The notes beneath the pieces are model-generated. The model was not told the origin of the DNA. It saw nothing but the letters and a program-made list of their open reading frames with translations, and searched no databases. A stretch of 64,000 nt of DNA from Leeuwenhoekiella blandensis MED217 (GTDB lineage Bacteria > Bacteroidota > Bacteroidia > Flavobacteriales > Flavobacteriaceae), in contig NZ_CH672395.1 in the NCBI RefSeq assembly GCF_000152985.1, positions 1,402,567 through 1,466,566 on the forward strand, given 5' to 3'. This document shows positions 41,054-55,413 of the stretch, one piece after another. The translations under genes were made by a program, and so were the position numbers. Numbering within the stretch: position 1 is the first letter of the stretch; each line of letters begins with the position of its first letter.

Positions 41054-44000
41054 ATGAAAAAACTAATTTATGTAACACAAATTACGCTGTTCTTTTTGGC
41101 TACTGTGCTGTTCGCTCAGGATAGGTCGCTTCAAGGTACGGTGACAGACACTAACGGAATGCCACTTCCCGGGGCAAGCGTTGTGGTTAAGAACACTACT
41201 GTAGGTGTGGTAACCGACTTTGATGGAAACTTTACTATAGCTATTCCTGAAAATGAAAATCTACTTGAAGTAACCTTTATGGGATTCAAATCTCAGGAAG
41301 TAGATATAACCGGAAAATCAGAAATTACGATCGTATTGGAAGAGGATGCTCAAAGTCTTGATGAGGTTGTAGTAACAGCCTTAGGGATTAAGCGATCTAC
41401 CAAAAAACTAGCATACGCTGTACAAAAAGTAGAAGGAGATGATCTCGCTGAGGCTAAGGAAACCAATGTTGTAAACTCATTATCTGGTAAAATGGCCGGT
41501 GTACGGGTTACCGGCGGTAACAGCGGAGTAGGTTCAAGTTCGCAGATCATCATTCGTGGTGAAAACTCTTTAAACCCAAGTCCTAACGCTAATTCCCCAC
41601 TTTTTGTTGTAGATGGAATTCCTATTAATAACAACGTTAATAATGCCGGTGGAGACGGTAATATGGAAGTAGATTTTGGTAACGGCGCAATGGATATCAA
41701 CCCTGATGATGTTGAAGAAATGACCGTACTTAAAGGCCCTAACGCAACAGCACTTTACGGTTCGCGTGGTGCAAATGGTGTTGTTTTGATCACTACAAAG
41801 TCGGGTAAAGGAACTAAAGGAATTGGCGTTTCTTTTAATCACAATTCTACTTTTGAGACCTTACTTACTTTACCAGAATATCAAAATGAATACGGTCAAG
41901 GTTCAAACGGGCAGTTTGCTTTTAATGATGGTGGTCAAAATCGCTCGATAACAGGTGGTGTAAACGATCACGTTGATGAGAGCTGGGGACCTGCACTTAA
42001 CGGCCAGTTGATTCCGCAGCACGATAGTCCGACGACAAGCGGATTTAGAGCAGGTGATGTCAATTTGAGACCGCGTAATGCTGATGGAACTTTTGCAGAT
42101 GAGATCATCGCAACGCCATTTGTTGCGCATCCTGATAATATTAGAGACTTTTTTGAAACCGGTTTTACGATGAGTAACAACATCGCGTTAACGGGCGCTA
42201 ATAAAGACGGAAACTTTAGAGTTTCGTTTACAGATTTAGATAGTGAAAGTATCGTTCCGAATTCAAATTTTAAAAGACGCACTTACGCGATCAATGGTTC
42301 GTATAATTTAACCGATTGGTTAAAAGTCACTGCTTCGATGAATTACATCAATTCTAATTCAGACAACCGTCCTAACAATTCCTATGGTACAGAAAACGTG
42401 ATGTATTTATGGATTTGGTTTGGGCGTCATATCAATATGAATGGTCTTAGAGACTACTGGCAGCCGGGCTTAGAAAACGTGCAACAGTTTAATTATAACT
42501 ATAACTATCACGACAATCCATTCTTCACGGTATATGAAAATACCAATGCCTTTAACCGTGACCGTGTGATCACTAATATGCGCGCCGATCTTAAACTGGC
42601 AGATGGTTTAGATCTTATGTTTCGTACAGGGCTAGACTATTCAAATGAGCTTGATATGCGCAAACGAGCATACTCAACACAGCGTTTTCCTAATGGACAA
42701 TATCGTGAGGATTATATTTTTGCTCAAGAACAAAATACCGACTTCCTTTTGTCTTACAACAAGGTGCTTACCGAAGATTTAGACTTTGGTATTTCTGTTG
42801 GAGCAAACCATCGTGTGGCGAAAAATCGTTATCAGCGTATAAGTGCTAATTCTCTTTCGATTCCTGCAATTTATAACTTCGGAAACGCAGCAGAGCCACT
42901 TACGACAAATGATTATGACAGCGAATTTAGAGTAAACAGTGCTTATGCCTTTGGAAATTTAGCCTATAAAAATTATTTGTTTTTAGACCTCACCGCCAGA
43001 AATGATTGGTCTTCTACACTTCCTGAAGATAATAACAGTTATTTCTATCCATCTGCAGGTGTAAGTGCTATTCTTTCTGATATGTTTGAAATGCCAGAAG
43101 CGATCAGCTTTGCAAAAATTAGAGGAGGTTATGCGGTTGTAGGTAACGATACCAGCCCATACAACCTTGCTGCAACCTATGGTTTTGGTGATACCTTTAA
43201 CGGATTCTCGAGAGTGTATTCGCCTTCAGAATTAAGAAATTCTGATTTAAAGCCTGAAAAAACCAATTCAATAGAATTGGGTGCAGATGTGCGTTTTTTC
43301 AAAAATCGTTTAGGTCTGGATGTAGCCGTATATCAGTCCACGACAAAGAACCAAATTATATCGCTTCCGGTATCTAATACTTCGGGATATAGTTCGCGTG
43401 TGATCAATGCGGGTGAAGTTCAAAACCGCGGTTTAGAAATCACCTTAAATGCCACTCCGGTACGTACCGATAATTTCCGATGGAATTCTTCGATCAACTT
43501 TACCACAAACAGAGGTGAGGTTAAAGAACTTACAGACGGGCTAGATTTTTACACGATCAAGAGTAACTATTTGACTGTAGGAGCACGAGTAGGCGAGCGC
43601 ATAGGCGATTTATACGGTACCGGTTTCCGTAAGGTTGAAGATCCTAACAGTCAATATTTTGGTCAGTGGATTATCAATCCAGATTCCGGTCTTCCTATAG
43701 TAGATAACGAGTTGAGAAAATTGGGTAATTACAGTCCGGACTTTATGGTTGGTTTCCAGAATAGCTTTCAGTATAAAAATTTCAACTTCAGTTTTCTTTT
43801 TGATTGGAGACAAGGAGGAGAATTTCATTCACGCACTGTGGCCATTGGAGGAACTACAGGAATGCTCGATTTTACAGTGCCGGGTAGAGAAACAGGTATT
43901 GTAGCGGCAGGTGTTGTAGAAAATGGCGACGGGTCTTACTCACCCAATACACAAAACGTATCTGCTTCAAACTACTATTCGCACGTGTATAACCGTAGTA

Positions 44001-44269
44001 ATGAAGAGAGCTCTATGTTTGACGCAACTTATGTAAAACTAAGAGAGGTAAAACTAGGCTATAACTTGCCTAAGAAATGGTTTAACACTGTGCCGTTTAC
44101 TTCTGCAACTATTTCGCTTGTAGGTAGAAACCTGGCGTTATGGACAGAAAATGACCACGTAGATCCAGAAAGTATTTCATTCTCAGGAGGCACTATTGTT
44201 CCCGGAGTTGAAGATATGGCACTGCCTAGCACGCGCAGTTATGGTGTAAATCTAAATCTAGAATTTTAA
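41054..44269 (+). CDS. SusC/RagA TonB-linked outer-membrane receptor
   Basis: TonB-dependent transporter of 1071 residues from the ATG at 41054 (a TTG 12 bases upstream is less likely). A signal peptide (to about FAQ) is followed by a carboxypeptidase-regulatory-like domain (LQGTVTDTNGMPLPGASV, TDFDGNFTI), then the TonB box-like DEVVVTALG and the plug (residues about 130-250, with SLSGKMAGVRV, the receptor signature and VLKGPNATALYGSRGANGV). The C-terminal barrel ends with SYGVNLNLEF and a terminal Phe. Paired with SusD it forms the bedbin-type importer. Context suggests its cargo is a phosphonate-bearing molecule rather than a plain glycan. Confidence 0.95.
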   Translation: MKKLIYVTQITLFFLATVLFAQDRSLQGTVTDTNGMPLPGASVVVKNTTVGVVTDFDGNFTIAIPENENLLEVTFMGFKSQEVDITGKSEITIVLEEDAQSLDEVVVTALGIKRSTKKLAYAVQKVEGDDLAEAKETNVVNSLSGKMAGVRVTGGNSGVGSSSQIIIRGENSLNPSPNANSPLFVVDGIPINNNVNNAGGDGNMEVDFGNGAMDINPDDVEEMTVLKGPNATALYGSRGANGVVLITTKSGKGTKGIGVSFNHNSTFETLLTLPEYQNEYGQGSNGQFAFNDGGQNRSITGGVNDHVDESWGPALNGQLIPQHDSPTTSGFRAGDVNLRPRNADGTFADEIIATPFVAHPDNIRDFFETGFTMSNNIALTGANKDGNFRVSFTDLDSESIVPNSNFKRRTYAINGSYNLTDWLKVTASMNYINSNSDNRPNNSYGTENVMYLWIWFGRHINMNGLRDYWQPGLENVQQFNYNYNYHDNPFFTVYENTNAFNRDRVITNMRADLKLADGLDLMFRTGLDYSNELDMRKRAYSTQRFPNGQYREDYIFAQEQNTDFLLSYNKVLTEDLDFGISVGANHRVAKNRYQRISANSLSIPAIYNFGNAAEPLTTNDYDSEFRVNSAYAFGNLAYKNYLFLDLTARNDWSSTLPEDNNSYFYPSAGVSAILSDMFEMPEAISFAKIRGGYAVVGNDTSPYNLAATYGFGDTFNGFSRVYSPSELRNSDLKPEKTNSIELGADVRFFKNRLGLDVAVYQSTTKNQIISLPVSNTSGYSSRVINAGEVQNRGLEITLNATPVRTDNFRWNSSINFTTNRGEVKELTDGLDFYTIKSNYLTVGARVGERIGDLYGTGFRKVEDPNSQYFGQWIINPDSGLPIVDNELRKLGNYSPDFMVGFQNSFQYKNFNFSFLFDWRQGGEFHSRTVAIGGTTGMLDFTVPGRETGIVAAGVVENGDGSYSPNTQNVSASNYYSHVYNRSNEESSMFDATYVKLREVKLGYNLPKKWFNTVPFTSATISLVGRNLALWTENDHVDPESISFSGGTIVPGVEDMALPSTRSYGVNLNLEF

Positions 44270-44280
44270 GAAAACACACG

Positions 44281-45723
44281 ATGAAAAAACTAACTATCAT
44301 ACAAATTCTTGTACTCGCTTGTCTTTTGATAACTGGCTGTACAGACAATTTTGAAGAAATCAATACCAACCCAAATGCTCCAGAAGCAGTAAGTGCAAAC
44401 TTGCTTACTTCTACGGTAACTTCAGAAATTACCAGAACGCTTACTCAAGAGGGCTATAGTGACGGTAACACGATCACCCAATTGATGGCAAAAAATAACT
44501 TTCCGGGTTTTGCGCAGTTTGATTGGGGAGATCAGGGAATGTGGAATTTTTTCTACGGAATTCTTCCGGAAATCGACGATATTCTAGAGATTTCTCGTGC
44601 CGAAGGAACACAGAACAGCACTTATGAGGGTATTGCACTTACGTTGCGTGCGTTGTGTTTTGCAAACCTTACAGATCTCTACGGAAACGTACCCTACGCT
44701 GAAGCTTTAGCCGGTCAATCTGAAGGGATTTTTACACCCGTTTACGACAATCAGGAAATGATCTACGACGGTGTTTTGGCAGATCTGGCAGCGGCAGATG
44801 CTGCCTTAGCCCAAAATCAAAGCATAAGCGGTGCTTCTGGAGATGTGATTTACGATGGTAACCCTGCACAGTGGAGAAAATTGGCAAACGCCTTAAGATT
44901 GCGTTACTTATTACGTATTTCGAAGCAGCGCGATGTGTCTTCAGCGATGCAAGCCATTGTAAATGCAGGAAACTACATCAGCTCTAATTCAGATAATGCA
45001 ACCTTAACCTATAGCGGAACTTCGAATACAGATTCTTGGCCACAAAGCACCGGTCGTATTGGAGGTTTTGATGAGAAGAGTTTGTGCGATACGGCCTTAG
45101 AGTATTTCAACAGATTTAACGATCCTCGATTAGATATTTGGTTTGATCGTAACAGTGATGGAAACTGGGTAGGAATGCCTATCGGTCTAAATCAAGATAA
45201 CGCACGTGCTTTTGATGATGCAAATAGTCCGAGTCGTTTAGATGTTGATTTGTTTTATTATTCAGCAACAGATGCCGAAGCTTTTATTATGAAAAACTCA
45301 GAAGTACAATTCATTTTAGCCGAAGCCGTAGCGCGTGGAATCATAAGCGGTAATGCTGAAGCATTTTATAATGCGGGAGTACGAGCAAGTATGAATTACT
45401 GGGGCGTAAACGATGCCGATGTAACGGCGTATTTAGCGCAACCGGCGGTAGCTTATGACGGTTCGTTAGAATTACTATTGACCCAGAAAACCATCGCCCT
45501 TTGGAATGTAGATTATCAAGGTTGGTTCAATTACAGAAGAACCGGTTTGCCAGCTTTAGAACCGGGACCAGACAGCCTCAATGGAGATTTGTATCCTGTG
45601 CGTTTCTTGTATCCTTCATCAGAGCAAACGTTGAATACCGCCAATTATCAAGCAGCTGTAGGTGCAATGGGGGGAGATAATATCAATGTAAAAGGCTGGT
45701 GGGAAACCGGTACCCGTTACTAA
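44281..45723 (+). CDS. SusD/RagB-like outer-membrane lipoprotein (SusD_RagB_2 type)
   Basis: Surface lipoprotein of 480 residues that forms the lid over SusC. Signal peptide with LITGC lipobox, Cys20. The mature N-terminus TDNFEEINTNPNAPEAV is typical of the SusD-like-2 subfamily (PF12771-type), which often imports peptides or other non-classical substrates. TPR-like helices are seen around ALTLRALCFANLTDLYGNVPYAEAL and in LRYLLRISKQRDVS. It begins 11 bases after susC. A strong terminator follows it, so expression of the downstream enzymes is probably lower than that of susCD. Confidence 0.94.
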   Translation: MKKLTIIQILVLACLLITGCTDNFEEINTNPNAPEAVSANLLTSTVTSEITRTLTQEGYSDGNTITQLMAKNNFPGFAQFDWGDQGMWNFFYGILPEIDDILEISRAEGTQNSTYEGIALTLRALCFANLTDLYGNVPYAEALAGQSEGIFTPVYDNQEMIYDGVLADLAAADAALAQNQSISGASGDVIYDGNPAQWRKLANALRLRYLLRISKQRDVSSAMQAIVNAGNYISSNSDNATLTYSGTSNTDSWPQSTGRIGGFDEKSLCDTALEYFNRFNDPRLDIWFDRNSDGNWVGMPIGLNQDNARAFDDANSPSRLDVDLFYYSATDAEAFIMKNSEVQFILAEAVARGIISGNAEAFYNAGVRASMNYWGVNDADVTAYLAQPAVAYDGSLELLLTQKTIALWNVDYQGWFNYRRTGLPALEPGPDSLNGDLYPVRFLYPSSEQTLNTANYQAAVGAMGGDNINVKGWWETGTRY

Positions 45724-45786: not shown

Positions 45787-45809
45787 GTTTAGATATGAAA
45801 CAGCTAATT

Positions 45810-47459
45810 ATGAATAAGTTTTTAAAGTTAAGCACTGCGCTCGCTGTGTTGATTTTAGTAGCCTGCGATACAAACGATGAACCAGAACTTGGTATTAAAC
45901 ACCTTGTGGTTATTGGGGTAGATGGGATGAGTCCCAATGGAATTCAAAATGCCAAAACACCGGTGCTGGATAGTCTCATTAAAAATGGAGCATCCACGCT
46001 TCAAGCGCGGTCGGTTTTACCTTCGAGCTCAAGTTCTAATTGGGCGAGTATGCTCATGGGCGCAGCTACCGAACAACACGGGATCACTTCCAACGGTTGG
46101 GACGTAAACGATTATACACTTCCTGCGGTTGTTTCAGGAGGAGATAGTCGTTTTCCTAGTATTTTCACCTTATTCCACGATCAAAAGCCGGAAGCACACG
46201 TTGGCGCCATTTATGATTGGGATGGTTTTGGGAGATTGTACAATCCGGCAGATGTTGATTTTGATATTGATGCAGACCACGAAGATAAAACGACTCAAGA
46301 AGCCATCAACTATATCAAAGCGCATAAACCAGACTTTACTTTTATTCATTTGGACCACGTGGACCACGCAGGACATAGTGAAGGTCACGGCAGCGCGAGT
46401 TATTATGAAGCGGTAGAAAAGGCCGATCTCCTTATTGGCGATATTATCAAATCGACTCAGGATGCAGGGATTTTTGAGGAAACGGTTTTTATCGTGTCTT
46501 CAGATCACGGCGGTCTCGGAAAAGGACACGGTGGTGAATCGCTCGATGAGGTACTTATTCCGTTTATTCTTTATGGAAAAAATGTAAAAAAAGGCTATGC
46601 TATCGAAGAGACGGTGTATCAATACGACAATGCCGCGACAGTAGCTTTTATGGCCGGTTTAGAAACTCCGCAAGCGTGGATAGGCAGACCGGTAAAAAGT
46701 GCTTTTGTGGGGTATGAGAAACCGGTTTTGAAGTATAAAAAGGTAGAAGCTTTACAAGCACCTCAATTTAAACCACAAAACGGACCCTATGCACCGGCTG
46801 GAGGATTGTTTCAAGAGAAGGTTTCGGTGGTTATTAACAATCCTAATGCTTCAGGGAGCATTTATTATACGCTAGATGGAAGTGACCCTAGTGCTAAACA
46901 TGCGGTAAAATATGATGCGCCGTTTTACGTAGATCAAACCACGCTCGTAAGTGCAATAGTTGTAGAAGAAGGCAAAACCCAAAGCAAAATTGCAGAAGGA
47001 AATTATCGTTTTGTTTCCGCTTCAAAAAAGCCAGGGGTGACCTATGCGATCTTTCAGGAAGAACCTTTAAGTGCGCTTCCAGATTTTACCAATAAGAAAC
47101 CTAAGCTATCGGGAGTTACGATGGAGTTTTCAACTGAAGTTCTTGATGAAATTTCTGAAACAACAAATACCGCACTGGTCTTTACTGCGCAACTGGAGGT
47201 TCTGACACCAGGCGAGTATACGTTTTACACGACAAGTGATGACGGAAGCAAGCTTTATGTTGATAACCAACTTGTGGTAAATAACGATGGCGACCACGGT
47301 GTGCAGGAGCGAAGTGGCAGCGTATCTATAGCAAAAGGAAAGCATACGCTTAAAATTGAGTATTTTAATGACGGTGGCGGATATTATTTGGATGCCAAAT
47401 ACAAAGGGCCGGGAATTGGTAAACAAATCATTCCTGCAGATAAATTGAGTCAAGACTAA
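45810..47459 (+). CDS. Lipoprotein phosphodiesterase/pyrophosphatase with PA14 domain
   Basis: Alkaline-phosphatase-superfamily phosphodiesterase, 549 residues from the ATG at 45810 (an earlier ATG at 45795 adds five residues). Lipoprotein: the lipobox ends LVAC with Cys19. Metal-site motifs are GVDGMSPNG, the nucleophile region SSSSSNWASMLMG, LDHVDHAGHSEGHG and SSDHGGLGKGHGG. Residues about 330-400 resemble a chitobiase-type Fn3 repeat (IYYTLDGSDPS). Residues about 440-545 form a PA14 domain (FYTTSDDGSKLYVDNQ), a glycan-binding module. It should sit on the envelope and split phosphate or phosphonate diesters on a glycan- or lipid-linked substrate. First gene after the terminator. Confidence 0.9.
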   Translation: MNKFLKLSTALAVLILVACDTNDEPELGIKHLVVIGVDGMSPNGIQNAKTPVLDSLIKNGASTLQARSVLPSSSSSNWASMLMGAATEQHGITSNGWDVNDYTLPAVVSGGDSRFPSIFTLFHDQKPEAHVGAIYDWDGFGRLYNPADVDFDIDADHEDKTTQEAINYIKAHKPDFTFIHLDHVDHAGHSEGHGSASYYEAVEKADLLIGDIIKSTQDAGIFEETVFIVSSDHGGLGKGHGGESLDEVLIPFILYGKNVKKGYAIEETVYQYDNAATVAFMAGLETPQAWIGRPVKSAFVGYEKPVLKYKKVEALQAPQFKPQNGPYAPAGGLFQEKVSVVINNPNASGSIYYTLDGSDPSAKHAVKYDAPFYVDQTTLVSAIVVEEGKTQSKIAEGNYRFVSASKKPGVTYAIFQEEPLSALPDFTNKKPKLSGVTMEFSTEVLDEISETTNTALVFTAQLEVLTPGEYTFYTTSDDGSKLYVDNQLVVNNDGDHGVQERSGSVSIAKGKHTLKIEYFNDGGGYYLDAKYKGPGIGKQIIPADKLSQD

Positions 47460-47468: not shown

Positions 47469-48824
47469 ATGAAAGAAAAGCTTTCAAAAAATGAGATGAT
47501 AGTAGAAGGGGATATCAACCTTTCGGAAGCCAGAAAAACGTGGCTTAAAGATCAAGTTTCTACCGAAGCTAAAACTTTACTGGAGAAAGATGCCAAGTAT
47601 TTTATGCATCAGGCTTTATCAACGCCTTGTCTTGATGTTCTGGCAAATGCTCAAGGTGCATTGATCACCAATACTTCTGGTAAGAATTATTTTGATTTCC
47701 ACGGAAACAACGTGCATCAGTTGGGATTTTCACATCCTAAACTTGTAGCAGCTTTAAAACAACAACTAGATGCGCTTACCTTTTCGACACGACGCTATAC
47801 CAACAAAACAGCAATAAATTTTGCTGAAAAATTAACCAGTCTCACTCCCGGTTTAGACAAAATTTTAATGACTCCAAACGGAAGTTCGGCTGTGGGGATC
47901 GCTTTGAAATTGGCTAGAGCGGTAACGGGAAAATACAAGGTGCTTTCCTTTTGGGATTCGTTTCACGGCGCTTCTCTTGATGTGGTAAGCGTGAGTGGTG
48001 AGTCGGTTTTTAGAGAGCAAATGGGACCTATGATGCCGGGCGTAGAACGTATTCCGCCGCCAATCACGTATCGTGGGATTTATGAAAGCAACGAGGAAAA
48101 GGCTTTAGAATATCTCGAATATATTCTTGCCAAAGACAACCAGATCGGGGCTTTTTTAGCAGAAACAGTTCGCAATACCGATGCGCAAATTCCGTCAAAA
48201 CACTTTTGGAAAGCAGCCCGCAAGCTTTGTGATCAGTATGGCGTATTACTCATTTTAGACGAGATTCCCATTGCCCTTGGTCGCACAGGAAAATTGTTTG
48301 CTTATGAACATTATGATATTATTCCTGATATTTTGTGCTTAGGAAAAGGCCTTGGTGGCGGTATCATTCCGCAGGCGGCGATAGTTACTAAAAAGGAGTT
48401 TGATCAATTTAATCAAATCTCTTTAGGGCATTACACTTTTGAAAAAAGTCCGATGGGCGCAGCGGCAGCACATACCACATTAGAAATAATCGAAGGAGAA
48501 CACCTGCTCGAACACGTGGTTTATCTAGAAGGAATGATGCAAGCCGAACTGAATCAGCTGCAAGCCGATTTTGAATTGATTGGCGATGTGCGCGGCATCG
48601 GACTTTTATGGGGAATCGAACTGGTTACCAGTCGGGTGACTAAAGAAAAAGCTTCGGCACAGGCTGAAGCTATAATGTATGAATGTCTCAAAAATGGGTT
48701 GAGCTTTAAAGTTTCTAAAGGAAATGTATTGCAGCTTTGTCCCGCACTTACCATAACTGAAACTCAACTCGCTGAAGCTCTAAACATTCTAAGAACAGCT
48801 TTCTACAAAATAACACAAGCATAA
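47469..48824 (+). CDS. pbfA: Class III PLP enzyme, probable (R)-1-hydroxy-2-aminoethylphosphonate ammonia-lyase
   Basis: Fold-type I PLP enzyme of 451 residues, cytoplasmic. The PLP Lys is residue 293 (CLGKGLGGG) and the pyridine-nitrogen Asp is 264 (LILDEIPIALGRTG). The motif FDFHGNNVHQLGF and the SFWDSFHGASLDVVSVSGE block match, from memory, PbfA enzymes that were first annotated as aminotransferases and later shown to eliminate ammonia from (R)-HAEP giving phosphonoacetaldehyde. Context strongly supports this: PhnX-like hydrolase, FAD oxidase and XRE regulator nearby. A general class III transaminase is the alternative. Gaps are 9 and 2 bases to the phosphoesterase genes on either side. 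Confidence 0.78.
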   Translation: MKEKLSKNEMIVEGDINLSEARKTWLKDQVSTEAKTLLEKDAKYFMHQALSTPCLDVLANAQGALITNTSGKNYFDFHGNNVHQLGFSHPKLVAALKQQLDALTFSTRRYTNKTAINFAEKLTSLTPGLDKILMTPNGSSAVGIALKLARAVTGKYKVLSFWDSFHGASLDVVSVSGESVFREQMGPMMPGVERIPPPITYRGIYESNEEKALEYLEYILAKDNQIGAFLAETVRNTDAQIPSKHFWKAARKLCDQYGVLLILDEIPIALGRTGKLFAYEHYDIIPDILCLGKGLGGGIIPQAAIVTKKEFDQFNQISLGHYTFEKSPMGAAAAHTTLEIIEGEHLLEHVVYLEGMMQAELNQLQADFELIGDVRGIGLLWGIELVTSRVTKEKASAQAEAIMYECLKNGLSFKVSKGNVLQLCPALTITETQLAEALNILRTAFYKITQA

Positions 48825-48826
48825 CT

Positions 48827-50410
48827 ATGAAATTACAAACCTATTTGTTGCTTTTAATGTGCTCTTTTTATGGCATTATACAAGCACAGGAAAATTCATT
48901 TATTGTAAAACCTTATTTACAAGACGCCGAACCAAATTCGATCATCATCAAATGGGAAACCGCCATAGATGGTGAAAGTAGGGTCGAGTATGGTACTTCA
49001 GAAAAACTGGGGAAATCGGCAGAGGGAAGTTCGTATAAAGTGACTTTTGGAGCCTCGCGATTGCATGAGGTGCAGCTTACCGGCTTACAACGTTTTACAA
49101 CCTATTATTACCGTGTAAAAACCGATAAACTCACGTCTGACATCTTTCAGTTTAAAACCCCTCCGTTTTCTGGAGAAGCAGAAGCTTTTAACCTGATCGC
49201 GATGAGTGATATGCAAATAGACCGCAGTCAACCCGATAAGTTTAATGAAGTGGTCAATGAAGGAATTATGAAGTATCTACAGGAGCAGTTTGGGGGTGAA
49301 GTGCCCGATAATTTGGCTTTGGTGATGATTCCCGGTGATTTGGTCGCTCAGGGAAGTAATTACGAGCAGTGGAACACCGATTTCTTTAAACCTTCAGAAA
49401 AACTATTTTCTGAGGTGCCTGTTTATCCGGTTCCCGGAAATCACGAACAGAATTCTCAGTTTTTCTTCAAATACTTCAGCCTGCCAGAAAATGGTGATCC
49501 CGCTTTTGCAGAGCACTGGTGGTATAAAGACTACGGAAATGTGCGTATCATTGGTTTAGATTCTAATGATGAATATCGCGATCTGCGACAGCAGTATACT
49601 TGGCTTGAAAATGTACTTAAAGAAACCGAGAATGCTGATGATATTGATTTTGTATTTGCGCAGTTGCATCATCCGTATAAATCAGAATTATGGATTCCGG
49701 GAGAGGAAGAATCGACCGGAAAAGTGGTCAAAATGCTCGAGGCATTTTCAGACAAAACAGGAAAACCTAGTGTACATTTCTTTGGGCATACCCACGGCTA
49801 TTCCCGCGGGCAGTCTAGAGACCACAATCATCTTTGGGTAAATGTAGCTTCGGCCGGTGGGGCAATTGACAATTGGGGCGAATTTGAAGGTCGGGATTAT
49901 GACGAGTTTACCGTAACGCAGGATGAGTATGGTTTTGTGATGGTCAATGTAGACCCTAATCCTGCAGATCCAAAAATTAGCCTGAAACGCATCAGTCGCG
50001 GGAATACCATAAACCCCAAAGACAATGAAGTTACAGATGAGATCACAGTTTATAAACTGAATCAAAAACCAAAAGCTCCGGAAGCGCTTTCGCCTAAAGA
50101 GGAAGAAATAGCTACTACAAAAATTACCTTAAAAGCTTCAGGCTTTGAAGGAGGACGAGCAACGAGTACCCATACCGCTTCGCATTGGCAATTGGCTACT
50201 TCTGCTGATTTCGAAAACCCGGAGGTAGACCGTTGGAAACAATCAGAAAACTGGTATTATGAAGAAAATAGGCAAAAGGATGATGATCTTACAGACGAAA
50301 TGTTAGCGCGTTTAAAACCACAAACAACCTATTTCTGGCGTGTGCGTTATCGCGATCAGTATTTGAGTTGGAGTGATTGGTCTGAAGTAGCAACCTTCAA
50401 AACAAATTAA
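48827..50410 (+). CDS. Secreted metallophosphoesterase, purple acid phosphatase-like
   Basis: Exported protein of 527 residues (signal peptide 1-20, ending IQAQ). Residues about 25-115 are a purple-acid-phosphatase N-terminal Fn3-like domain (SIIIKWETAIDGESRVEYGTS split by loops). Residues about 120-360 are a calcineurin-like phosphoesterase with MSDMQID (variant of the DxH site), IPGDLV, GNHEQN, QLHHPYK and FFGHTHGYSRG. The first metal motif is altered (no His after the Asp), so activity needs testing. A C-terminal Fn3-like region ends with FWRVRYRDQY and SDWSEVATF. Probably removes phosphoryl or phosphonyl groups in the periplasm. Confidence 0.88.
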   Translation: MKLQTYLLLLMCSFYGIIQAQENSFIVKPYLQDAEPNSIIIKWETAIDGESRVEYGTSEKLGKSAEGSSYKVTFGASRLHEVQLTGLQRFTTYYYRVKTDKLTSDIFQFKTPPFSGEAEAFNLIAMSDMQIDRSQPDKFNEVVNEGIMKYLQEQFGGEVPDNLALVMIPGDLVAQGSNYEQWNTDFFKPSEKLFSEVPVYPVPGNHEQNSQFFFKYFSLPENGDPAFAEHWWYKDYGNVRIIGLDSNDEYRDLRQQYTWLENVLKETENADDIDFVFAQLHHPYKSELWIPGEEESTGKVVKMLEAFSDKTGKPSVHFFGHTHGYSRGQSRDHNHLWVNVASAGGAIDNWGEFEGRDYDEFTVTQDEYGFVMVNVDPNPADPKISLKRISRGNTINPKDNEVTDEITVYKLNQKPKAPEALSPKEEEIATTKITLKASGFEGGRATSTHTASHWQLATSADFENPEVDRWKQSENWYYEENRQKDDDLTDEMLARLKPQTTYFWRVRYRDQYLSWSDWSEVATFKTN

Positions 50411-50417: not shown

Positions 50418-51461
50418 ATGAGAATTAAACTAATCGCTGCGATCCTCTGTATTGCGATTGCAGGAATCAACAAGGCAGTCGCACAAGAGGCGACCGAGCA
50501 AAAAGTAGTTTTAGTAACACTCGACGGTTTTCGCTGGCAAGAATTGTTTACCGGAGCAGATCCTGCGTTGATTGCCAATAAAAATTATGTACAAGACACC
50601 ACTGGTTTAAAGGCTGAATTTTGGCGACCTACATCCGAAGCACGACGCAAAGCGCTGTTGCCTTTCATCTGGAATGAAGTGGTAAACCTTGGAGAAATAC
50701 ACGGGAACAGAACATTAGGCAGTAAAGTGAATTTGACGAATGCGATGTGGTTTTCGTATCCCGGATACAATGAAATTCTTACCGGTAAAGCTGATGATGA
50801 GCGCATAAAAAGTAACGCTAAAATTCAGAATCCTAACCGTACCATTTTAGAAAAAATAAATAAAACAGAAGCATACAAGGGTAAGGTAGCCGCTTTTAGC
50901 AGTTGGGATGTTTTTCCATTTATCATCAATGAAGAACGCAGTGGTGTTCCGGTGAATGCAGCTTTTGATTCGGCAGAAACACTACCACTCACAGATCGCG
51001 AAGACTTTTTAAATCAGTTGCAAAAGGAGATTCCGAGTCCTTGGGGAAGTGTGCGTCTCGATGCTTTTACTCATCACTACGCTTTAGAGTATCTCAAAAA
51101 GAAACATCCAAGTTTAGTCTACATCGCATATGGAGAAACCGATGATTTTGCACACGACGGCGAATATGATGCTTATCTACATTCGGCACATACTACCGAT
51201 GCGATGCTCAAAGAATTATGGGGTTTTATTCAATCAGATCCGTTTTATAAGGATCAAACTACGTTCATCATAACCACAGATCACGGTAGAGGAACGCAGC
51301 CTTTAGATACTTGGAGGAGTCACGGCAGTGACATCAAAGGCGCAGACGAGACGTGGTTGATTATTTTAGGAAAGGGCGGAGCCGCACTTGGCGAAGTGCA
51401 ATCTGTAGAGCAATTATATCCTACGCGTATTGTTCCCCTCATCGAGGAAATACTTAACTAG
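50418..51461 (+). CDS. Secreted alkaline-phosphatase-fold phosphodiesterase
   Basis: Exported protein of 347 residues; signal peptide 1-22 ending AVAQ. Alkaline phosphatase superfamily: VVLVTLDGFRWQELF gives the first metal Asp, FSYPGYNEILTG the nucleophile region, IAYGETDDFAHDG and ITTDHGRG the second-metal residues, and a closing RSHG His. Sulfatase or phosphoglyceromutase activities exist in relatives, so phosphodiesterase is inferred. Its placement 7 bases after the metallophosphoesterase argues they act on the same material. It is the last gene before a 259-base gap. Confidence 0.85.
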   Translation: MRIKLIAAILCIAIAGINKAVAQEATEQKVVLVTLDGFRWQELFTGADPALIANKNYVQDTTGLKAEFWRPTSEARRKALLPFIWNEVVNLGEIHGNRTLGSKVNLTNAMWFSYPGYNEILTGKADDERIKSNAKIQNPNRTILEKINKTEAYKGKVAAFSSWDVFPFIINEERSGVPVNAAFDSAETLPLTDREDFLNQLQKEIPSPWGSVRLDAFTHHYALEYLKKKHPSLVYIAYGETDDFAHDGEYDAYLHSAHTTDAMLKELWGFIQSDPFYKDQTTFIITTDHGRGTQPLDTWRSHGSDIKGADETWLIILGKGGAALGEVQSVEQLYPTRIVPLIEEILN

Positions 51462-51511: not shown

Positions 51512-51620
51512 TGCCTCGAAATTGAAAATTAGTTTCCAACCAATGCCTTATTGGGATGCTTTAAATATGTTTATTATTTGTAAAATAATATCAATTAAAA
51601 AGACTTTAATTTTATTATAA

Positions 51621-51636
51621 GTAAACTTTTGTTTAT
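51621..51636. promoter_or_regulatory. TAAAC-TTTT-GTTTA inverted repeat ahead of DUF5690
   Basis: Inverted repeat TAAAC-TTTT-GTTTA at 51622-51635. The same 15 bases TAAACTTTTGTTTAT recur at 58146-58160 ahead of the HU gene. GTAAACTTTTG matches the reverse strand at 40978-40988 before SusC. A weak candidate regulatory element of AT-rich character. Confidence 0.3.
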
Positions 51637-51671: not shown

Positions 51672-51704
51672 ACCGGTCGATGGGGTTTAAAGCTCTCGGC
51701 CGGT
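51672..51704 (+). promoter_or_regulatory. GC-rich leader hairpin before DUF5690
   Basis: Arms ACCGGTCGA (51672-51680) and TCGGCCGGT (51696-51704) form nine pairs (one G-U) around a 15-base loop, ending 16 bases before the DUF5690 ATG. Candidate translational control hairpin or leftover repeat. Confidence 0.45.
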
Positions 51705-51720
51705 TTATTCGAGAAGTACT

Positions 51721-52998
51721 ATGGGTATTAAAAAACAAGATTTGGCTTTTGTGAGCAAGGCTTCCATAGCCGCTTTTGGTGCATATTTCTGTATGTATGC
51801 GTTTAGAAAGCCATTTGCTGTTGCCACTTTTGAAGATCTAAGTGTTTTGGGTATCGACTATAAAATAGTCCTGATCATCACTCAGGTTTTAGGATATATG
51901 CTTTCTAAGTTTATTGGTATAAAAGTAATTTCAGAATTAGAACCGCGGCAACGTTTAGCATATCTCCTGGGATTGATAGGGATTTCTGAAGTTGCGTTAA
52001 TTCTTTTTGGGTGGGTATCCCAACCCTACAATTTCATTTTTTTATTTTTTAATGGACTGCCGCTGGGAATGATTTGGGGGATTGTTTTCTCTTACCTTGA
52101 GGGAAGAAAATATACCGAAATTCTCGGCGTGATTTTATGCACCAGTTTTATCGTTTCGAGTGGTGTTGTAAAATCTATAGGTTTATGGGTAATGGCAAGT
52201 TGGGGTGTTACACAGTTTTGGATGCCGGCCGTTACCGGAGCATTGTTTATAATTCCACTAGTGTTTTTTGCCCGTTTGTTAGAAACCGTGCCACAACCTA
52301 CACAAGAAGAAAAAGCTTTACGCGTAGAGCGTGTTCCCATGCGCCCCAAAGACCGAAGCAACGTTATCAAGCAATTTGCTTTACCCTTGTTTATTCTTAT
52401 TCTGTTTTATATCGTACTTACCGCGTTTAGGGACTTGCGAGATAATTATGCGCGCGAACTATGGGACGGCTTGGGCTATGCAGGAGATATTTCGGTGTAC
52501 AGTACTTCAGAACTGGTGGTGGCTTTTTTGGTTTTGATCATTTTGGCTTCAGTGTACGCGATCAAAGATAATTTGAAAGCCTTACTTACCTATCACGGTA
52601 TATTACTTTTTGGTACATTTTCAGTAGGTATTGCCACCTTTCTGTTGCAAGCGCAACTGCTTAACCCCTTTTTATGGATGGTGATCTCAGGATTTGGTTT
52701 ATACATCTGCTACGTTCCCTTTAATGCATTGTTCTTTGATAGGTTTATTGCTGCCTTTCGAATTAAAGGCAACGCCGGTTTTCTAATTTATCTGGCAGAT
52801 GCTTTTGGGTATTTAGGGAGTATGGCGGTCTTGCTCTACAAGAATTTTGGGATGAGTACAATCTCCTGGTTGAAGTTTTTTATCAATGGCGCCTACTGGC
52901 TTTCGATCATTGGGAGTATAAGTGTGGTTGTTTCATTCTTTTATCTGCGAAAAAAACATCGCAAAGCGAAATTTAATGTTGTGGCTTATGAAAATTAA
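51721..52998 (+). CDS. DUF5690 MFS-like inner-membrane transporter
   Basis: Integral membrane protein of 425 residues with about 12 hydrophobic segments and a major-facilitator-like layout. The N-terminal region KASIAAFGAYFCMYAFRKP (TM1 with the FRKPF turn) is characteristic of DUF5690. A cytoplasmic loop (about 190-215, basic) lies between the two six-helix halves. The family has no biochemically assigned substrate that I know of. Here its stop overlaps the FAD oxidase start by 11 bases, making translational coupling likely; I infer that it imports the aminophosphonate (AEP, N-methyl-AEP or HAEP). No Phn ABC transporter is present in the window. Confidence 0.85.
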   Translation: MGIKKQDLAFVSKASIAAFGAYFCMYAFRKPFAVATFEDLSVLGIDYKIVLIITQVLGYMLSKFIGIKVISELEPRQRLAYLLGLIGISEVALILFGWVSQPYNFIFLFFNGLPLGMIWGIVFSYLEGRKYTEILGVILCTSFIVSSGVVKSIGLWVMASWGVTQFWMPAVTGALFIIPLVFFARLLETVPQPTQEEKALRVERVPMRPKDRSNVIKQFALPLFILILFYIVLTAFRDLRDNYARELWDGLGYAGDISVYSTSELVVAFLVLIILASVYAIKDNLKALLTYHGILLFGTFSVGIATFLLQAQLLNPFLWMVISGFGLYICYVPFNALFFDRFIAAFRIKGNAGFLIYLADAFGYLGSMAVLLYKNFGMSTISWLKFFINGAYWLSIIGSISVVVSFFYLRKKHRKAKFNVVAYEN

Positions 52999-54142
52999 AT
53001 ATGATCTGCTCGTTGTAGGCGGTGGAGTGTTGGGAACCTTTCACGCGTATCATGCTTTAAATAAAGGATTACGTGTTGCGGTTTTGGAGCAAAGTAGCAG
53101 ACCTCAGGGAGCTACAACCCGTAATTTTGGTCAGGTTGTTCCGTCTGGGATGAACACCAAGTGGCAAAATTTTGGAAGAGAAAGCTTAGCTATTTATAAA
53201 GCGATTCAGAAAGAGTTTGATATTACCATTCGTCAAAACGGATCAGTGTATCTCGCTTCTAATGCTGAAGAAGTACAACTTATCGAAGAACTTTCCGATA
53301 TAAATAAGCAAAATGAGTATTCTTCAACCTTACTTACCAAAGCCCAATGTCTTGAAAAATATCCCGGTTTACGGGCAGATTATGTAAAGGCCGGCCTGTT
53401 TTTTCCAGATGAGGTGACGGTAGAACCACGAACGATGATTCACCGCTTGCAGCAGTATCTTGTAGAACAAAAACGCCTAGATTTATTTACAAATACAAAA
53501 GCCGTTCACTTAGAAACGCTGGGTGATCAAGTAGAAGTGACCACTGCTGCCGGCACAGCATTTTATGCAGCGCAAGTGCTTATCTGTAACGGCAGTGATT
53601 TTAAAACCTTATACCCAAGGCTGTTTGCCGAAAGTGATTTGCAGCTTTCTAAATTGCAAATGATGCAGACCAAGCCGCAGCACAATTTTGAATTGCCAGG
53701 TTCAATTTTGACAGGATTGTCTATCAGGCGTTATGAGGCATTTTACGAGTGTCCTTCCTTCCAAGCGATAAAAGCCCAAGAAGATCCTAAAGGTCTAGAG
53801 AAAAAATGGGGTGTTCATATGCTATTTAAACAGGCGGCAGACGGCTCAGTGATTCTGGGAGATTCACACGAATATGCCGATGCAGACAAAATTGAAGATT
53901 TGGGCTATGATTTGAATATGGACATTGACAACTTTATGATCGCTGAAGCCAAAAAGATCTTCGATTTACCCACTTATGAAATCCAAGACCGCTGGTATGG
54001 AATTTACTCGCAGTGTAAAACTCAGGATATTTTCTTAAAAGATATCGACGCTCGCATTCATGTTGCAACAGGCATCGGCGGAAAAGGAATGACCGGAAGC
54101 GCCGGTTTTGCAAAACATCACCTAGAAATTATACTTAATTAA
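52988..54142 (+). CDS. TIGR03364-type FAD-dependent aminophosphonate oxidase
   Basis: DAAO/glycine-oxidase-like flavoprotein of 384 residues from the ATG at 52988 (an upstream start at 52922 lies within DUF5690). The FAD-binding motif GGGVLG is at residues 11-16, then VAVLEQSSRPQGATTRNFGQV, the ARNFG-like signature of the phosphonate-associated TIGR03364 family. C-terminal GIGGKGMTGSAGFA is the second FAD site. Relatives in phosphonate clusters oxidise 2-aminoethylphosphonate or its N-methyl form to phosphonoacetaldehyde, releasing ammonia or methylamine. It lies 6 bases before the hydrolase that would use this product. Confidence 0.88.
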   Translation: MKIKYDLLVVGGGVLGTFHAYHALNKGLRVAVLEQSSRPQGATTRNFGQVVPSGMNTKWQNFGRESLAIYKAIQKEFDITIRQNGSVYLASNAEEVQLIEELSDINKQNEYSSTLLTKAQCLEKYPGLRADYVKAGLFFPDEVTVEPRTMIHRLQQYLVEQKRLDLFTNTKAVHLETLGDQVEVTTAAGTAFYAAQVLICNGSDFKTLYPRLFAESDLQLSKLQMMQTKPQHNFELPGSILTGLSIRRYEAFYECPSFQAIKAQEDPKGLEKKWGVHMLFKQAADGSVILGDSHEYADADKIEDLGYDLNMDIDNFMIAEAKKIFDLPTYEIQDRWYGIYSQCKTQDIFLKDIDARIHVATGIGGKGMTGSAGFAKHHLEIILN

Positions 54143-54148
54143 ATACGT

Positions 54149-54835
54149 ATGCATACTATAAAACTTGCCGTTTTTGATATGGCAGGAACTACTGTTAATG
54201 AGAATAATATCGTTTATAAGACGGTTCAAAAAGTAATCAATGATCTGGGATACACTGTTAGCCTTGATCAGGTTTTGGAGTATGGTGCAGGAAAAGAAAA
54301 GCATCAAGCCATAACCGATGTATTAACCCACTGCACCGCTTCTAATGATGTCAAAAAAGAGGCAGCTGTAGCTTTTGCAGCCTTTAAACCAGCTTTAGAA
54401 TTGGCATACGATACGTTGGAGATCAATACGTTTGACGGGATGTTAGCCTTTTTTAAAGCCTTACGGAAGCAGGATATTCACGTGGTACTCAATACGGGAT
54501 ATGATGCAAAAACTGCGACAAAACTTTTAGCTAAATTAGAATGGAATGTAGGAGAAGACATCGATATGCTTATTACAGCAGATGATGTAGCAAATGGAAG
54601 GCCCGCACCTGATATGATTCAAAAAGCGATGGACGCGTTTGGAGTTACAGATTCGGCTGAAGTACTTAAAGCAGGGGATTCTGAAATCGATATTATCGAA
54701 GGTAAAAATGCCAATTGTGGTTTGACCGTAGGTGTCTTAAGCGGCGCACAAACGCGTGAACAATTAGAAAAGTCACAACCTGATTATATTTTAAATACGC
54801 TAACAGAACTTGAAGCACTATTGATCAAGTCCTAG
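54149..54835 (+). CDS. PhnX-like phosphonatase (TIGR03351 HAD hydrolase)
   Basis: HAD-superfamily hydrolase of 228 residues, predicted to cleave the C-P bond of phosphonoacetaldehyde to acetaldehyde and phosphate. It shows the phosphonatase-specific features: motif I reads DMAGTT (nucleophile Asp10, and Ala12 in place of the usual second Asp); the cap domain has Lys49 with His52 (AGKEKHQAI), aligning with the Schiff-base Lys53/His56 of PhnX; the motif III Lys is replaced by Arg151 (NGRPAPD); motif IV is KAGDSEIDI. Family TIGR03351 is known to co-occur with FAD oxidases rather than PhnW, exactly as here. It is convergent with the regulator (4-base overlap at the stops). Confidence 0.9.
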   Translation: MHTIKLAVFDMAGTTVNENNIVYKTVQKVINDLGYTVSLDQVLEYGAGKEKHQAITDVLTHCTASNDVKKEAAVAFAAFKPALELAYDTLEINTFDGMLAFFKALRKQDIHVVLNTGYDAKTATKLLAKLEWNVGEDIDMLITADDVANGRPAPDMIQKAMDAFGVTDSAEVLKAGDSEIDIIEGKNANCGLTVGVLSGAQTREQLEKSQPDYILNTLTELEALLIKS

Positions 54836-55413
54836 TTTTCAGCATCTTTTAAATAGAAATATAGCACCAGCATCGATGTTGGTGCAGTCGTGCGATTGAT
54901 AGGTACGTGGGGAATTCTACCGTCAAAGAATATAGAATCTCCTTGGTGTAAGGTGACTTCTTCATCTCCTATGTTATAGACGCAGCTTCCGCTAAGCATA
55001 TATTTAAATTCGTAAGCGTCGGTTTCTACTTTGCCACGCTCAGATCCCGGCTGTATTTCGAGTAGCACTGCTTCAAAAGCGATCGATGAAAGCGATTTTC
55101 CAAATATAGATTTGTATTGAAAACCTTTAGCATCGTCTTCCTTTTCAATAATAGCATGTTCTTCTTTGCGTGAAACAATAAATGCTGTTTTTCCGCCTTG
55201 AGGTAAACTATTGAAGAAGGAGGCAACTTCAGTATCTAGTGCAGCAATAATATTCAGAAGAACAGGTAGTGAGGGAATCGTACGCCCGTTTTCAACGCGT
55301 GAGATAAGTCCGTTGCTCACTTCGGCGCTAGAAGCTACGGTATTGATGGTAAGTCCTTTTTCTTTTCTGATTTCGCGAATGCGTTTCCCAATGCCAATGA
55401 TATAATCTTCCAA
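54832..55413 (-). CDS. XRE-cupin transcriptional regulator
   Basis: Protein of 193 residues with an N-terminal helix-turn-helix of XRE type (about 7-62: GIGKRIREIRKEKGLTI, EVSNGLISRVENGRTIPS) and a C-terminal cupin (about 110-185; EIQPGSERG, YKYMLSGS-like FKYMLSGSCVYNIGD, FDGRIPHVPIN). Members with a cupin often sense a small metabolite in the barrel. It is convergent with the phosphonate genes, so it most likely controls them. Upstream is an inverted repeat (55439-55455) that may be its own operator. Confidence 0.9.
   Translation of the reverse strand: MEDYIIGIGKRIREIRKEKGLTINTVASSAEVSNGLISRVENGRTIPSLPVLLNIIAALDTEVASFFNSLPQGGKTAFIVSRKEEHAIIEKEDDAKGFQYKSIFGKSLSSIAFEAVLLEIQPGSERGKVETDAYEFKYMLSGSCVYNIGDEEVTLHQGDSIFFDGRIPHVPINRTTAPTSMLVLYFYLKDAEN

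Follow-up and report, generated by a model that had tools for sequence, protein, structure and literature searches.

Ten genes at positions 41054-55413 of the window, by which is meant the whole 64,000-nucleotide stretch of Leeuwenhoekiella blandensis MED217 DNA analysed, probably form a substrate-inducible aminophosphonate-utilisation locus, modular in its make-up and built on the SusCD chassis of Bacteroidota. Its reading as an aminophosphonate catabolic locus that is kept as a block was supported by the results below, and its surface substrate would be (hydroxy)aminoethylphosphonate compounds, trimmed at the surface and taken up by a TonB-linked importer.

Gene content of the locus

All ten reading frames were open and lay in the order given by a preliminary description of the region, with pbfA separating the first phosphoesterase gene from the second. 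Family profiles and ORFs bore out the content proposed there (SusC, SusD, esterases, PbfA, DUF5690, oxidase, HAD and XRE-cupin), as follows.

41054..44269, + strand: SusC/RagA-type TonB-dependent outer-membrane transporter (TIGR04056)
44281..45723, + strand: SusD-like surface lipoprotein (PF12771, 332 bits)
45795..47459, + strand: NPP-type phosphodiesterase, a lipoprotein carrying CHB_HEX_C and PA14 domains (PF01663, 109 bits)
47469..48824, + strand: PbfA (NF049939)
48827..50410, + strand: secreted purple-acid-phosphatase-like metallophosphoesterase with a purple-acid-phosphatase N-terminal domain (PF16656, PF00149)
50418..51461, + strand: secreted alkaline-phosphatase-superfamily esterase, APsf (PF01663, 25 bits)
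51721..52998, + strand: DUF5690 MFS-fold transporter, proposed inner-membrane aminophosphonate importer (PF18943, 550 bits)
52988..54142, + strand: PbfD-type FAD amine oxidase, start codon uncertain (TIGR03364)
54149..54835, + strand: PhnX-like phosphonatase, HAD (TIGR03351)
54832..55413, - strand: XRE-cupin (PuuR-like) regulator (PF01381, HTH_3; PF07883, Cupin_2)

The absence of glycoside hydrolases claimed earlier also held, as a family search of the ten locus proteins matched neither a glycoside hydrolase nor a polysaccharide lyase; the CHB_HEX_C domain of the NPP is an accessory domain and not a glycoside-hydrolase family.

Conservation of the SusCD-NPP-PbfA block

Among the best 80 of 589 confirmed matches, SusC, SusD, NPP and PbfA were found in this order on one strand in 43 of the 49 flavobacterial PbfA loci, with room for up to two other genes, on either strand, in each of the SusD-NPP and NPP-PbfA gaps. 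Retention of the order in this many loci indicates that the genes are not chance neighbours. Locus genes were called as the simple longest ORFs and labelled by BLASTP (E 1e-5), labels below about 30% identity being weak. Exceptions were three Arenibacter loci with NPP and no SusCD (L025, L027 and L056), one locus with SusD labelled and SusC and NPP unlabelled (L041), one with SusD and NPP unlabelled (L044) and one on a cut contig (L045). The preliminary description had staked its reading on conservation of the gene set as a block in related genomes, and such conservation was what these 43 loci displayed. The co-occurrence of SusCD with pbfA that it proposed to look for in other Bacteroidota stood for the flavobacterial loci and not for the phylum-wide sample, in which SusC-SusD lay upstream in 2 of 15 regions; the SusCD linkage of PbfA is mostly a Flavobacteriaceae trait.

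A Kriegella locus (L042) carried SusC, SusD, NPP and PbfA alongside PhnA (474 bits, cut-off 407.6), PhnY (642 bits, cut-off 635.7), PhnW (407 bits, cut-off 360.8) and a GlpT-like MFS transporter, with two other genes between SusD and NPP, one of them on the opposite strand; DUF5690, the PhnX-like HAD and XRE-cupin were absent from this stretch. The deeply branching NPP-PbfA clusters L083, L088 and L089 were likewise labelled by BLAST for PhnA, PhnY and PhnW (31-52% identity) and for AepP (51, 25 and 27% identity, respectively). Orphan PbfAs count against the phosphonate-locus reading: at 10 loci from Chitinophagaceae, Sphingobacteriales and unplaced Bacteroidetes MAGs no phosphonate gene was recognised within about 10 kb, and five further places (two in G126 and one each in G099, G190 and G292) had only weak labels nearby, namely aldehyde dehydrogenase (23-29% identity), aminotransferase (28%) and SusC (25%).

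The window SusC scored 691 bits against TIGR04056 (cut-off 368), and its closest paralog among the 20 SusC-type proteins examined in its own genome was 45% identical over the full length. The idea that the locus SusCs form a strict clade was dropped, as two own-genome paralogs, Dyadobacter SusCs and two SusCs of PbfA-less core loci were interspersed among the 46 flavobacterial locus SusCs in the tree; a single clade was compatible with the tree data and was not rejected (p-AU 0.53). It was also considered that SusCD might be a passenger importer of peptides or glycans, phosphonates entering through porins. This would agree with the variable SusC class between loci (33-92% identity), with PbfA lacking an adjacent SusC-SusD in 3/5 Arenibacter and 14/16 Dyadobacter loci, and with the few upstream pairs in the phylum sample. 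It is unlikely, however, given the order retained in the flavobacterial loci and given clusters without PbfA in which SusC-SusD (L118, and L122 at 26-29% identity) or SusC (L119) stood beside HAD-DUF5690-PbfD.

Secreted phosphoesterases and co-occurrence across Bacteroidota

By eye, NPP and SusD start with lipoprotein-type signals (SusD lipobox LLITGC), and the metallophosphoesterase and APsf with ordinary signal peptides. An alignment of 25 NPP homologs showed conservation of D43, S79, N82, D190/H194, D237/H238 and H245, which, by NPP chemistry, we take to be the metal site and nucleophile. The predicted structure was an alkaline-phosphatase-superfamily model (pLDDT 86), and in a Foldseek search with it no single substrate class stood out. 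S1 sulfatases carry the formylglycine motif C/S-x-P-x-R; the nucleophile stretch of the NPP reads LPSSSSSNW, S79 and N82 being unchanged in all 25 rows, and assignment as an S1 sulfatase was rejected on the absence of the motif, despite the high rank of sulfatases in Foldseek. APsf matched PF01663 at 25 bits, barely above the 23-bit cut-off. It was found in 17 of 62 genomes, five of which (G025, G007, G033, G076 and G091) had neither DUF5690 nor a PhnX-like gene, and also within PbfA-less core loci; being present elsewhere too, it was dropped as a strict member of the AEP core. The metallophosphoesterase and APsf could act in general phosphate scavenging.

The 62 Bacteroidota genomes comprised 15 with PbfA and 47 without, the latter hand-picked from 395 with the aim of sampling the same families, and as they are not a random draw the Fisher values are descriptive. 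E-value limits were set by us at 1e-40 for TIGR03351, TIGR03276 and APsf and at 1e-20 for NPP. Counting only matches that covered its catalytic part, NPP was present in 11/15 PbfA-positive and 0/47 PbfA-negative genomes (p 3e-9); in six of the latter (G179, G371, G387, G253, G249 and G391) the match was confined to the PA14/CHB part, and these were scored as non-carriers. DUF5690 occurred in 15/16 genomes with TIGR03351 and 4/46 without (p 6e-10), the two genes lying at most 2.1 kb apart in 12/15 genomes. Phn-HD was found in eight of the 62 genomes, all with DUF5690 and none with NPP (p 0.002 within the 19 DUF5690-positive genomes).

These distributions bear on the idea of a general phosphate-starvation locus of the PusCD type, in which phosphodiesters (phosphoethanolamine, lipid head groups, nucleotides) are the substrates and the phosphonate enzymes a minor add-on. 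NPP, PAP and AP-superfamily folds do mostly cleave phosphate esters, and APsf also occurs outside phosphonate loci. Yet NPP of this type was confined to PbfA-positive genomes of the sample, a local XRE-cupin regulator has candidate sites at the locus promoters, and the PhnX-like/DUF5690/PbfD core is found with SusC or SusCD in genomes without PbfA linkage, leaving this idea a low probability.

Phosphonate enzymes and the DUF5690 transporter

At the family level, the intracellular chemistry of an aminophosphonate locus would rest on characterised families. PbfA scored 686.4 bits against NF049939 (equivalog cut-off 525), with the PLP lysine K293 and D264 present in 96/96 alignment rows. PbfAs from gammaproteobacterial stretches that also hold a PhnW-like gene, 54-58% identical to the window PbfA, nested inside the Bacteroidota PbfA tree, which, like the SusC trees, was a quick search with SH-aLRT support only. 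The oxidase (query 53006-54139) reached 466.7 bits against TIGR03364 (cut-off 285.1) and the HAD 227.2 bits against TIGR03351 (cut-off 218.9), its score with the stricter phosphonatase model TIGR01422 being 99.8, below the cut-off of 220. D10, the nucleophile, and K51, the likely Schiff-base lysine position, were conserved in 60/60 HAD rows. From a reading of the motif, K51 is presumably equivalent to K53, the Schiff-base lysine of PhnX; a pairwise alignment of the HAD allows K49 as an alternative, with lysine in 41/60 rows. The passing of the NF049939, TIGR03364 and TIGR03351 cut-offs supported the earlier proposal that two deaminating entries, PbfA and PbfD, feed one PhnX-like hydrolase. No PhnW was found in the whole genome (best 51 bits, cut-off 360.8). 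A PbfA of the ethanolamine-phosphate phospho-lyase type, with the HAD an ordinary phosphatase and phosphoethanolamine lipids degraded in place of phosphonates, has in its favour that such a lyase shares the class-III aminotransferase subgroup (available text of PMC8154272), a 147-bit match to PDB 6tor and the three phosphoesterases, but was set aside as very improbable on family cut-offs and neighbouring genes, PbfA exceeding its equivalog cut-off by 161 bits, the Kriegella cluster holding PhnA, PhnY and PhnW, the likely Schiff-base lysine being invariant, and associations with PbfD and Phn-HD being seen.

The DUF5690 protein was modelled with an MFS fold (pLDDT 88; alignment A2 had 7 rows and alignment A4 20). 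Ranks 1-10 of a Foldseek search were all SLC37A4/G6PT, a structural comparison with SLC37A4 gave Z 34.0 and an rmsd of 3.2 over 361 residues, and a PDB profile search (E up to 1) returned only two sequences, both of SLC37A4 (E 0.0019 and 0.0057). DUF5690 models as an MFS transporter nearest to organophosphate exchangers, the edge over other MFS proteins being small (Z 34.0 and 32.4 vs 32.2 for DgoT). Comparison with Kriegella AepP by hhalign gave no significant match (probability 0.6%), and no paper on DUF5690/PF18943 was found in the open-licence PMC literature.

Candidate operators

A candidate motif was located 5' of three genes of the locus.

40984..40998: candidate operator, one mismatch, 5' of susC
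51570..51584: candidate operator, one mismatch, 5' of DUF5690
51611..51625: candidate operator, one mismatch, 5' of DUF5690
55474..55488: candidate operator TTTAC-N5-GTAAA, 5' of the regulator gene, the sole exact copy in the window

Across 52 promoter regions (of the window and of further loci), 9 exact sites were found against 0.05 expected and 23 with at most one mismatch against 3.4 expected, the motif having been built on the three regions of the window itself; 37/52 regions had no site at this stringency. As a genome-wide signature the exact operator was unspecific (24 genomic sites vs 16 control) and was rejected.

Proposed pathway

In the favoured aminophosphonate reading, surface or periplasmic esterases, chiefly the NPP lipoprotein, would act on phosphonolipids, phosphonoglycans, CMP-AEP or similar esters to set free 1-hydroxy-2-aminoethylphosphonate (HAEP) and 2-aminoethylphosphonate (AEP) or its N-methyl form, N-methyl-AEP (step 1). 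The phosphonate, free or bound to a fragment, would cross the outer membrane via SusCD (step 2) and, as co-occurrence and fold suggest, the inner membrane via DUF5690 (step 3). Judging by family, PbfA would then convert (R)-HAEP to phosphonoacetaldehyde and ammonia by elimination, and PbfD would oxidise AEP or N-methyl-AEP to phosphonoacetaldehyde (step 4), from which the PhnX-like HAD, by family and conserved lysine, would yield acetaldehyde and phosphate (step 5). XRE-cupin may control three promoters through TTTAC-N5-GTAAA-like sites (step 6). The core module would comprise DUF5690, PbfD, the PhnX-like HAD and XRE-cupin, often with SusCD; the exchangeable HAEP module would be NPP-PbfA here and a Phn-HD/PhnZ-type oxygenase in other Bacteroidota. 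It is conceivable, though somewhat doubtful, that PbfA-linked NPPs are a dedicated family of phosphonate-ester hydrolases freeing HAEP from phosphonolipids or phosphonoglycans at the surface, that SusCD imports the phosphonate or a fragment bearing it, and that DUF5690 serves Bacteroidota as the principal carrier of aminophosphonates across the inner membrane, all taken together. The locus would then be a 'phosphonate utilisation locus' for esterified phosphonates, beyond free ones.

Bacterial phosphonate-making capacity serves mostly to decorate the cell surface with molecules like AEP, according to the available text of PMC6697681. If the pathway is correct, a locus linking the cleavage of esters at the surface to TonB-dependent import and hydrolysis of the C-P bond could give Bacteroidota access to this tethered pool. 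To our knowledge, characterised routes of phosphonate degradation begin with the free acid. Two uncharacterised protein groups, DUF5690 and PbfA-linked NPP, would gain a testable function, and the locus would offer a genomic marker of phosphonate turnover.

Comparison with known systems

The available text of PMC8115612 describes Flavobacterium PusCD loci that include 'phosphonate-degrading enzymes', and the earlier claim that a TonB-linked phosphonate locus was not described is therefore overstated. Those loci share a SusCD pair with secreted PDEs/PMEs, and the co-localisation of SusCD with phosphoesterases that marks PusCD was found among the genes here. The regulator listed for PUSI and PUSII is an ECF sigma factor or a FecR-like protein and their SusDs are PF07980/PF14322, whereas the present locus has XRE-cupin and PF12771; the accessible part of that source does not name PbfA, PbfD or DUF5690. 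A search of the open-licence PMC literature found nothing joining phosphonate, SusC, SusD and 2-aminoethylphosphonate. As far as the literature was searched, the PbfA-NPP pairing, the likely role of DUF5690, the modular architecture and the candidate operator are new.

The PbfA-phnW-phnX and PbfA-phnWYA clusters of Proteobacteria (PMC8154272, PMC12366243) have in common with the locus the PbfA family and the phosphonoacetaldehyde hub. SusCD, NPP and DUF5690 are unmentioned in the available sections of both papers, and none of them turned up in the four gammaproteobacterial PbfA loci examined, whose PhnW-like gene is absent from the genome here. This absence matches the PhnW-free route published for Mariniblastus fucicola, in which, as far as the available text of PMC10590968 goes, oxidative deamination by PbfD2 to phosphonoacetaldehyde is followed by PhnX-type hydrolysis; here, unlike there, PbfD (TIGR03364, family level) occurs together with PbfA, SusCD and secreted esterases. 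The 2-aminoethylphosphonate permease AepP, reported from Kriegella in the available part of PMC8316502, is likewise an MFS transporter adjoining aminophosphonate genes; DUF5690 is a separate family, and no locus examined had both labels. With polysaccharide utilisation loci the locus shares a SusCD importer, a surface lipoprotein hydrolase and a local regulator, and it differs from them in having no glycoside hydrolase among its ten proteins and in its predicted cytoplasmic C-P cleavage, phosphate and nitrogen apparently being gained from C-P compounds through a kind of importer usual for sugars.

Gene content and conservation of the locus

The window lies in a 4.24 Mb, single-contig genome of the marine genus Leeuwenhoekiella. 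Ten open genes were found within the locus, nine on one strand and the regulator gene on the other:

39411-40556, HlyD-family membrane-fusion gene (left flank)
41054-55413, the locus, in the order SusC, SusD, NPP-type phosphodiesterase (NPP) bearing PA14 and chitobiase-C-terminal domains, PbfA, purple-acid-phosphatase-like metallophosphoesterase, secreted AP-superfamily esterase (APsf), DUF5690 transporter, TIGR03364 FAD amine oxidase (PbfD), TIGR03351 PhnX-like phosphonatase (HAD), XRE-cupin regulator (opposite strand)
55630-55704, tRNA-Met gene (right flank)

Curated cut-offs were exceeded by PbfA, the oxidase and the HAD. Ordinary HAD phosphatases are not known to have the Schiff-base lysine of phosphonatase; here the nucleophile D10 and lysine K51 were present in all 60 rows of the HAD alignment, and K51 fits the Schiff-base position, although a pairwise alignment could place K49 there instead.

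Conservation was assessed in the best 80 of 589 PbfA matches to come from a scan of named genomes, with genes labelled by BLASTP. Among these best 80 of 589, PbfA of Leeuwenhoekiella marinoflava, polynyae and aestuarii was 84% identical to that of the window, and 49 loci were flavobacterial. NPP was labelled in 46 of the 49, SusC in 44, SusD in 43, the metallophosphoesterase in 40, XRE-cupin in 39, the oxidase and HAD in 38 each and APsf in 36, and the order SusC-SusD-NPP-PbfA was kept in 43; DUF5690 was labelled in 22, many flanks stopping short of its position. The Dyadobacter loci of the same best 80 carried HAD, oxidase, PbfA and DUF5690 in 16/16 and NPP in 15/16, with an adjacent SusC-SusD pair in only two (L057 and L076). 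This set also held ten loci with PbfA alone (Chitinophagaceae, Sphingobacteriales and unplaced Bacteroidetes MAGs), four gammaproteobacterial loci, each accompanied on its stretch by a gene with a PhnW-like label (30-39%), and one short contig, L073, with a partial NPP and PbfA.

Among 395 genomes drawn from across the phylum, PbfA scored above cut-off in 15, at 16 places. With the window's own region set aside, 15 remained; these contained NPP in eight, PhnW-like genes in seven, DUF5690 in six, and PhnA-like and AepP-like (AEP permease) genes in three each; a SusC-SusD pair lay upstream in two (L081, L082), and a third SusC label, in L084, was a weak 25% match without SusD. From the label counts across flavobacterial, Dyadobacter and phylum-draw loci, the link of NPP to PbfA is therefore deep, and that of SusCD mainly flavobacterial.

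PbfA-family genes for which no phosphonate gene was recognised up to about 10 kb away were observed in L048, L050, L053-L055, L058-L061, L063, L084-L087 and L090. Three sampled genomes with such an orphan PbfA (G099, G190, G292) carried DUF5690 and a PhnX-like gene elsewhere, and a fourth (G126) carried DUF5690 and a Phn-HD oxygenase gene. A MAG titled Algicola (L011), assigned by the tree tool to Pseudoalteromonadaceae, had PbfA and SusC falling within the Muricauda group; the name is perhaps a homonym or the bin misnamed.

Phosphonate genes near PbfA

The Kriegella aquimaris locus (L042) combined SusC, SusD, NPP and PbfA with PhnA, PhnY and PhnW, all three exceeding curated cut-offs, and a GlpT-like transporter. 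Two extra genes, one on the opposite strand, lay between SusD and NPP, and DUF5690, HAD and XRE-cupin were not found among the BLASTP labels of the stretch examined. The available part of PMC8316502 reports AepP from Kriegella. BLASTP labels in L083, L088 and L089 placed NPP and PbfA with PhnA/PhnY/PhnW-like genes and with AepP at 51, 25 and 27%, respectively. The NPP proteins of these three regions (L083:6581-9088, L088:6639-9092, L089:6886-9348) were 818-836 aa long, and whole-genome matches indicate two tandem NPP catalytic domains.

Flavobacterial PbfAs formed a clade with a support of 100 in the PbfA tree; those of Vibrio, Enterovibrio, Endozoicomonas and Neptuniibacter, which have PhnW-like genes nearby, nested within Bacteroidota diversity. 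These gammaproteobacterial proteins, a comparison set without the characterised V. splendidus enzyme, were 54-58% identical to the window PbfA.

NPP and DUF5690 as partners of phosphonate genes

Co-occurrence was examined in 62 hand-picked genomes, 15 PbfA-positive and 47 PbfA-negative. The NPP catalytic domain was present in 11/15 of the former vs 0/47 of the latter (Fisher p 2.7e-9), and the four positive genomes without it (G126, G099, G190, G292) were those with a solitary PbfA. In the same 62, DUF5690 was found in 19 and TIGR03351 (E <= 1e-40) in 16, with both in 15 (p 6e-10); the two genes lay within 2.1 kb in 12 of these 15.

The predicted structure of DUF5690 was an MFS fold (pLDDT 88), for which Foldseek ranks 1-10 were all the glucose-6-phosphate exchanger SLC37A4/G6PT, also the only solved protein that the DUF5690 profile reached, by two of its sequences at E 0.0019 and 0.0057. 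With VIA-align 2, the model gave Z 34.0 and 32.4 to SLC37A4 vs 32.2 to a galactonate symporter, and the edge of SLC37A4 is therefore modest.

Eight residues were invariant in 25 aligned NPP sequences (D43, S79, N82, D190, H194, D237, H238, H245) and are interpreted as forming a two-metal site of NPP type, with serine as nucleophile. The protein is related to Xanthomonas NPP and ENPP5; a sulfatase identity was rejected, the sulfatase motif being missing. The metallophosphoesterase matched purple acid phosphatases, and APsf barely matched any solved structure (E 0.01); no substrate was singled out by these comparisons. The available part of PMC6697681 describes bacterial phosphonate synthesis as largely cell-surface tailoring with molecules like AEP (2-aminoethylphosphonate), in which nucleotidyltransferases take part, making phosphonate esters a plausible target of the locus esterases.

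Proposed alternative modules on a shared core

DUF5690/HAD places were also taken from genomes without linked PbfA and gene-labelled. The AEP core (DUF5690, PbfD and HAD, in some with XRE-cupin, SusC or SusCD) was present in four of them:

L118: SusC-SusD-MBL-APsf-HAD-DUF5690-PbfD
L119: HAD, DUF5690, PbfD, XRE-cupin, SusC (51% identical)
L121: XRE-cupin, APsf, HAD, DUF5690, PbfD
L122: SusC-SusD (26-29% identical), HAD, DUF5690, PbfD
L117, L120, L123, L124: smaller or rearranged gene sets

An HD protein near the core scored 215.4 (L119), 199.5 (L121), 222.7 (L122) and 213.0 bits (L123) with the Phn-HD oxygenase model, two of the four (L119, L122) exceeding its cut-off of 214.6. Phn-HD occurred in 8 of the 62 hand-picked genomes, all eight with DUF5690 and none with NPP; the 19 DUF5690-positive genomes included eight with NPP and eight with Phn-HD, without overlap (p 0.002). 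Three of the eight Phn-HD genomes (G126, G099, G190) also had an orphan PbfA. PhnZ belongs to the HD-oxygenase family. In the available part of PMC8154272 it is described as the sole enzyme known to degrade R-HAEP (1-hydroxy-2-aminoethylphosphonate) prior to PbfA. NPP-PbfA and Phn-HD are therefore read as alternative HAEP modules upon a shared AEP core.

Further gene associations were observed. An alcohol dehydrogenase adjoining DUF5690, XRE-cupin and HAD (L124:6553-7641) scored slightly below the cut-off of TIGR03366, a putative phosphonate-catabolism dehydrogenase (324.5 vs 328.1 bits). A metallo-beta-lactamase (MBL)-fold protein, probably secreted, lay between NPP and PbfA in L005 (8740-10014; PF00753, 24.3 bits vs cut-off 22.7), as did its counterparts; the label was given in 27 of the 49 flavobacterial loci among the best 80 of 589 and in L118, and the gene was absent from the window. 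In L125:1196-4573 and L126:5061-8407, the gene for an NPP sharing 44-45% identity with that of the window is oriented divergently to one for a class-III aminotransferase with about 30% identity to PbfA; the two may be a sister pair directed at some other amino-phosphorus compound.

SusC importer and candidate operator

The window's genome gave 51 plug-domain matches, and the locus SusC shared no more than 45% identity with any of the 20 SusC-type paralogs examined. The nearest (L116:5648-10336, from 3676000-3693000 of this genome; 45%) accompanied a PF12771 SusD, and none of the other locus query genes was labelled by BLASTP in that stretch. Identity reached 72-92% with the locus SusCs of Leeuwenhoekiella, Zobellia and some members of the Muricauda group, the remainder being more distant (33-63%). 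In the SusC tree, two own-genome paralogs, Dyadobacter SusCs and two SusCs of PbfA-less cores were mixed among the locus SusCs; a single clade was neither shown nor rejected (p-AU 0.53), and the fixed position of SusC is better evidence than its tree.

Sites resembling TTTAC-N5-GTAAA were common to the non-coding stretches that precede susC, DUF5690 and the regulator gene. The only exact copy within the 64 kb was at 55474; three more sites with one mismatch lay in these stretches, and ten with at most one mismatch were counted window-wide. In a set of 52 promoter regions taken from the window and from relatives, nine exact sites were observed vs 0.05 expected from shuffles, and seven of the nine regions holding them lie outside Leeuwenhoekiella; 37 of the 52 had no site with at most one mismatch. 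A related TTTACAAATA core was retained in Muricauda- and Maribacter-type divergent promoters. Genome-wide, exact copies were not specific (24 vs 16 for the control), and the sites are therefore proposed as a candidate operator only.

Comparison with known systems

In the open-licence PMC literature, no prior description was found of the PbfA-NPP pairing, of DUF5690 as a phosphonate-linked transporter (no paper found there names it), of interchangeable HAEP modules, or of a PbfA-PbfD-PhnX-like cluster run through SusCD; within the literature covered, neither NPP nor DUF5690 had a phosphonate link. The preliminary description had taken a TonB-linked locus of this shape to be undescribed; SusCD pairs accompanied by phosphoesterases and 'phosphonate-degrading enzymes' have already been published for Flavobacterium, as the available part of PMC8115612 states. 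The chemistry of PbfA, PbfD and PhnX is likewise already known. A genome-wide profile search found no PhnW in the window's genome (best score 51 bits), which in this respect resembles the PbfD2-PhnX route, PhnW-less as set out in the available part of PMC10590968.
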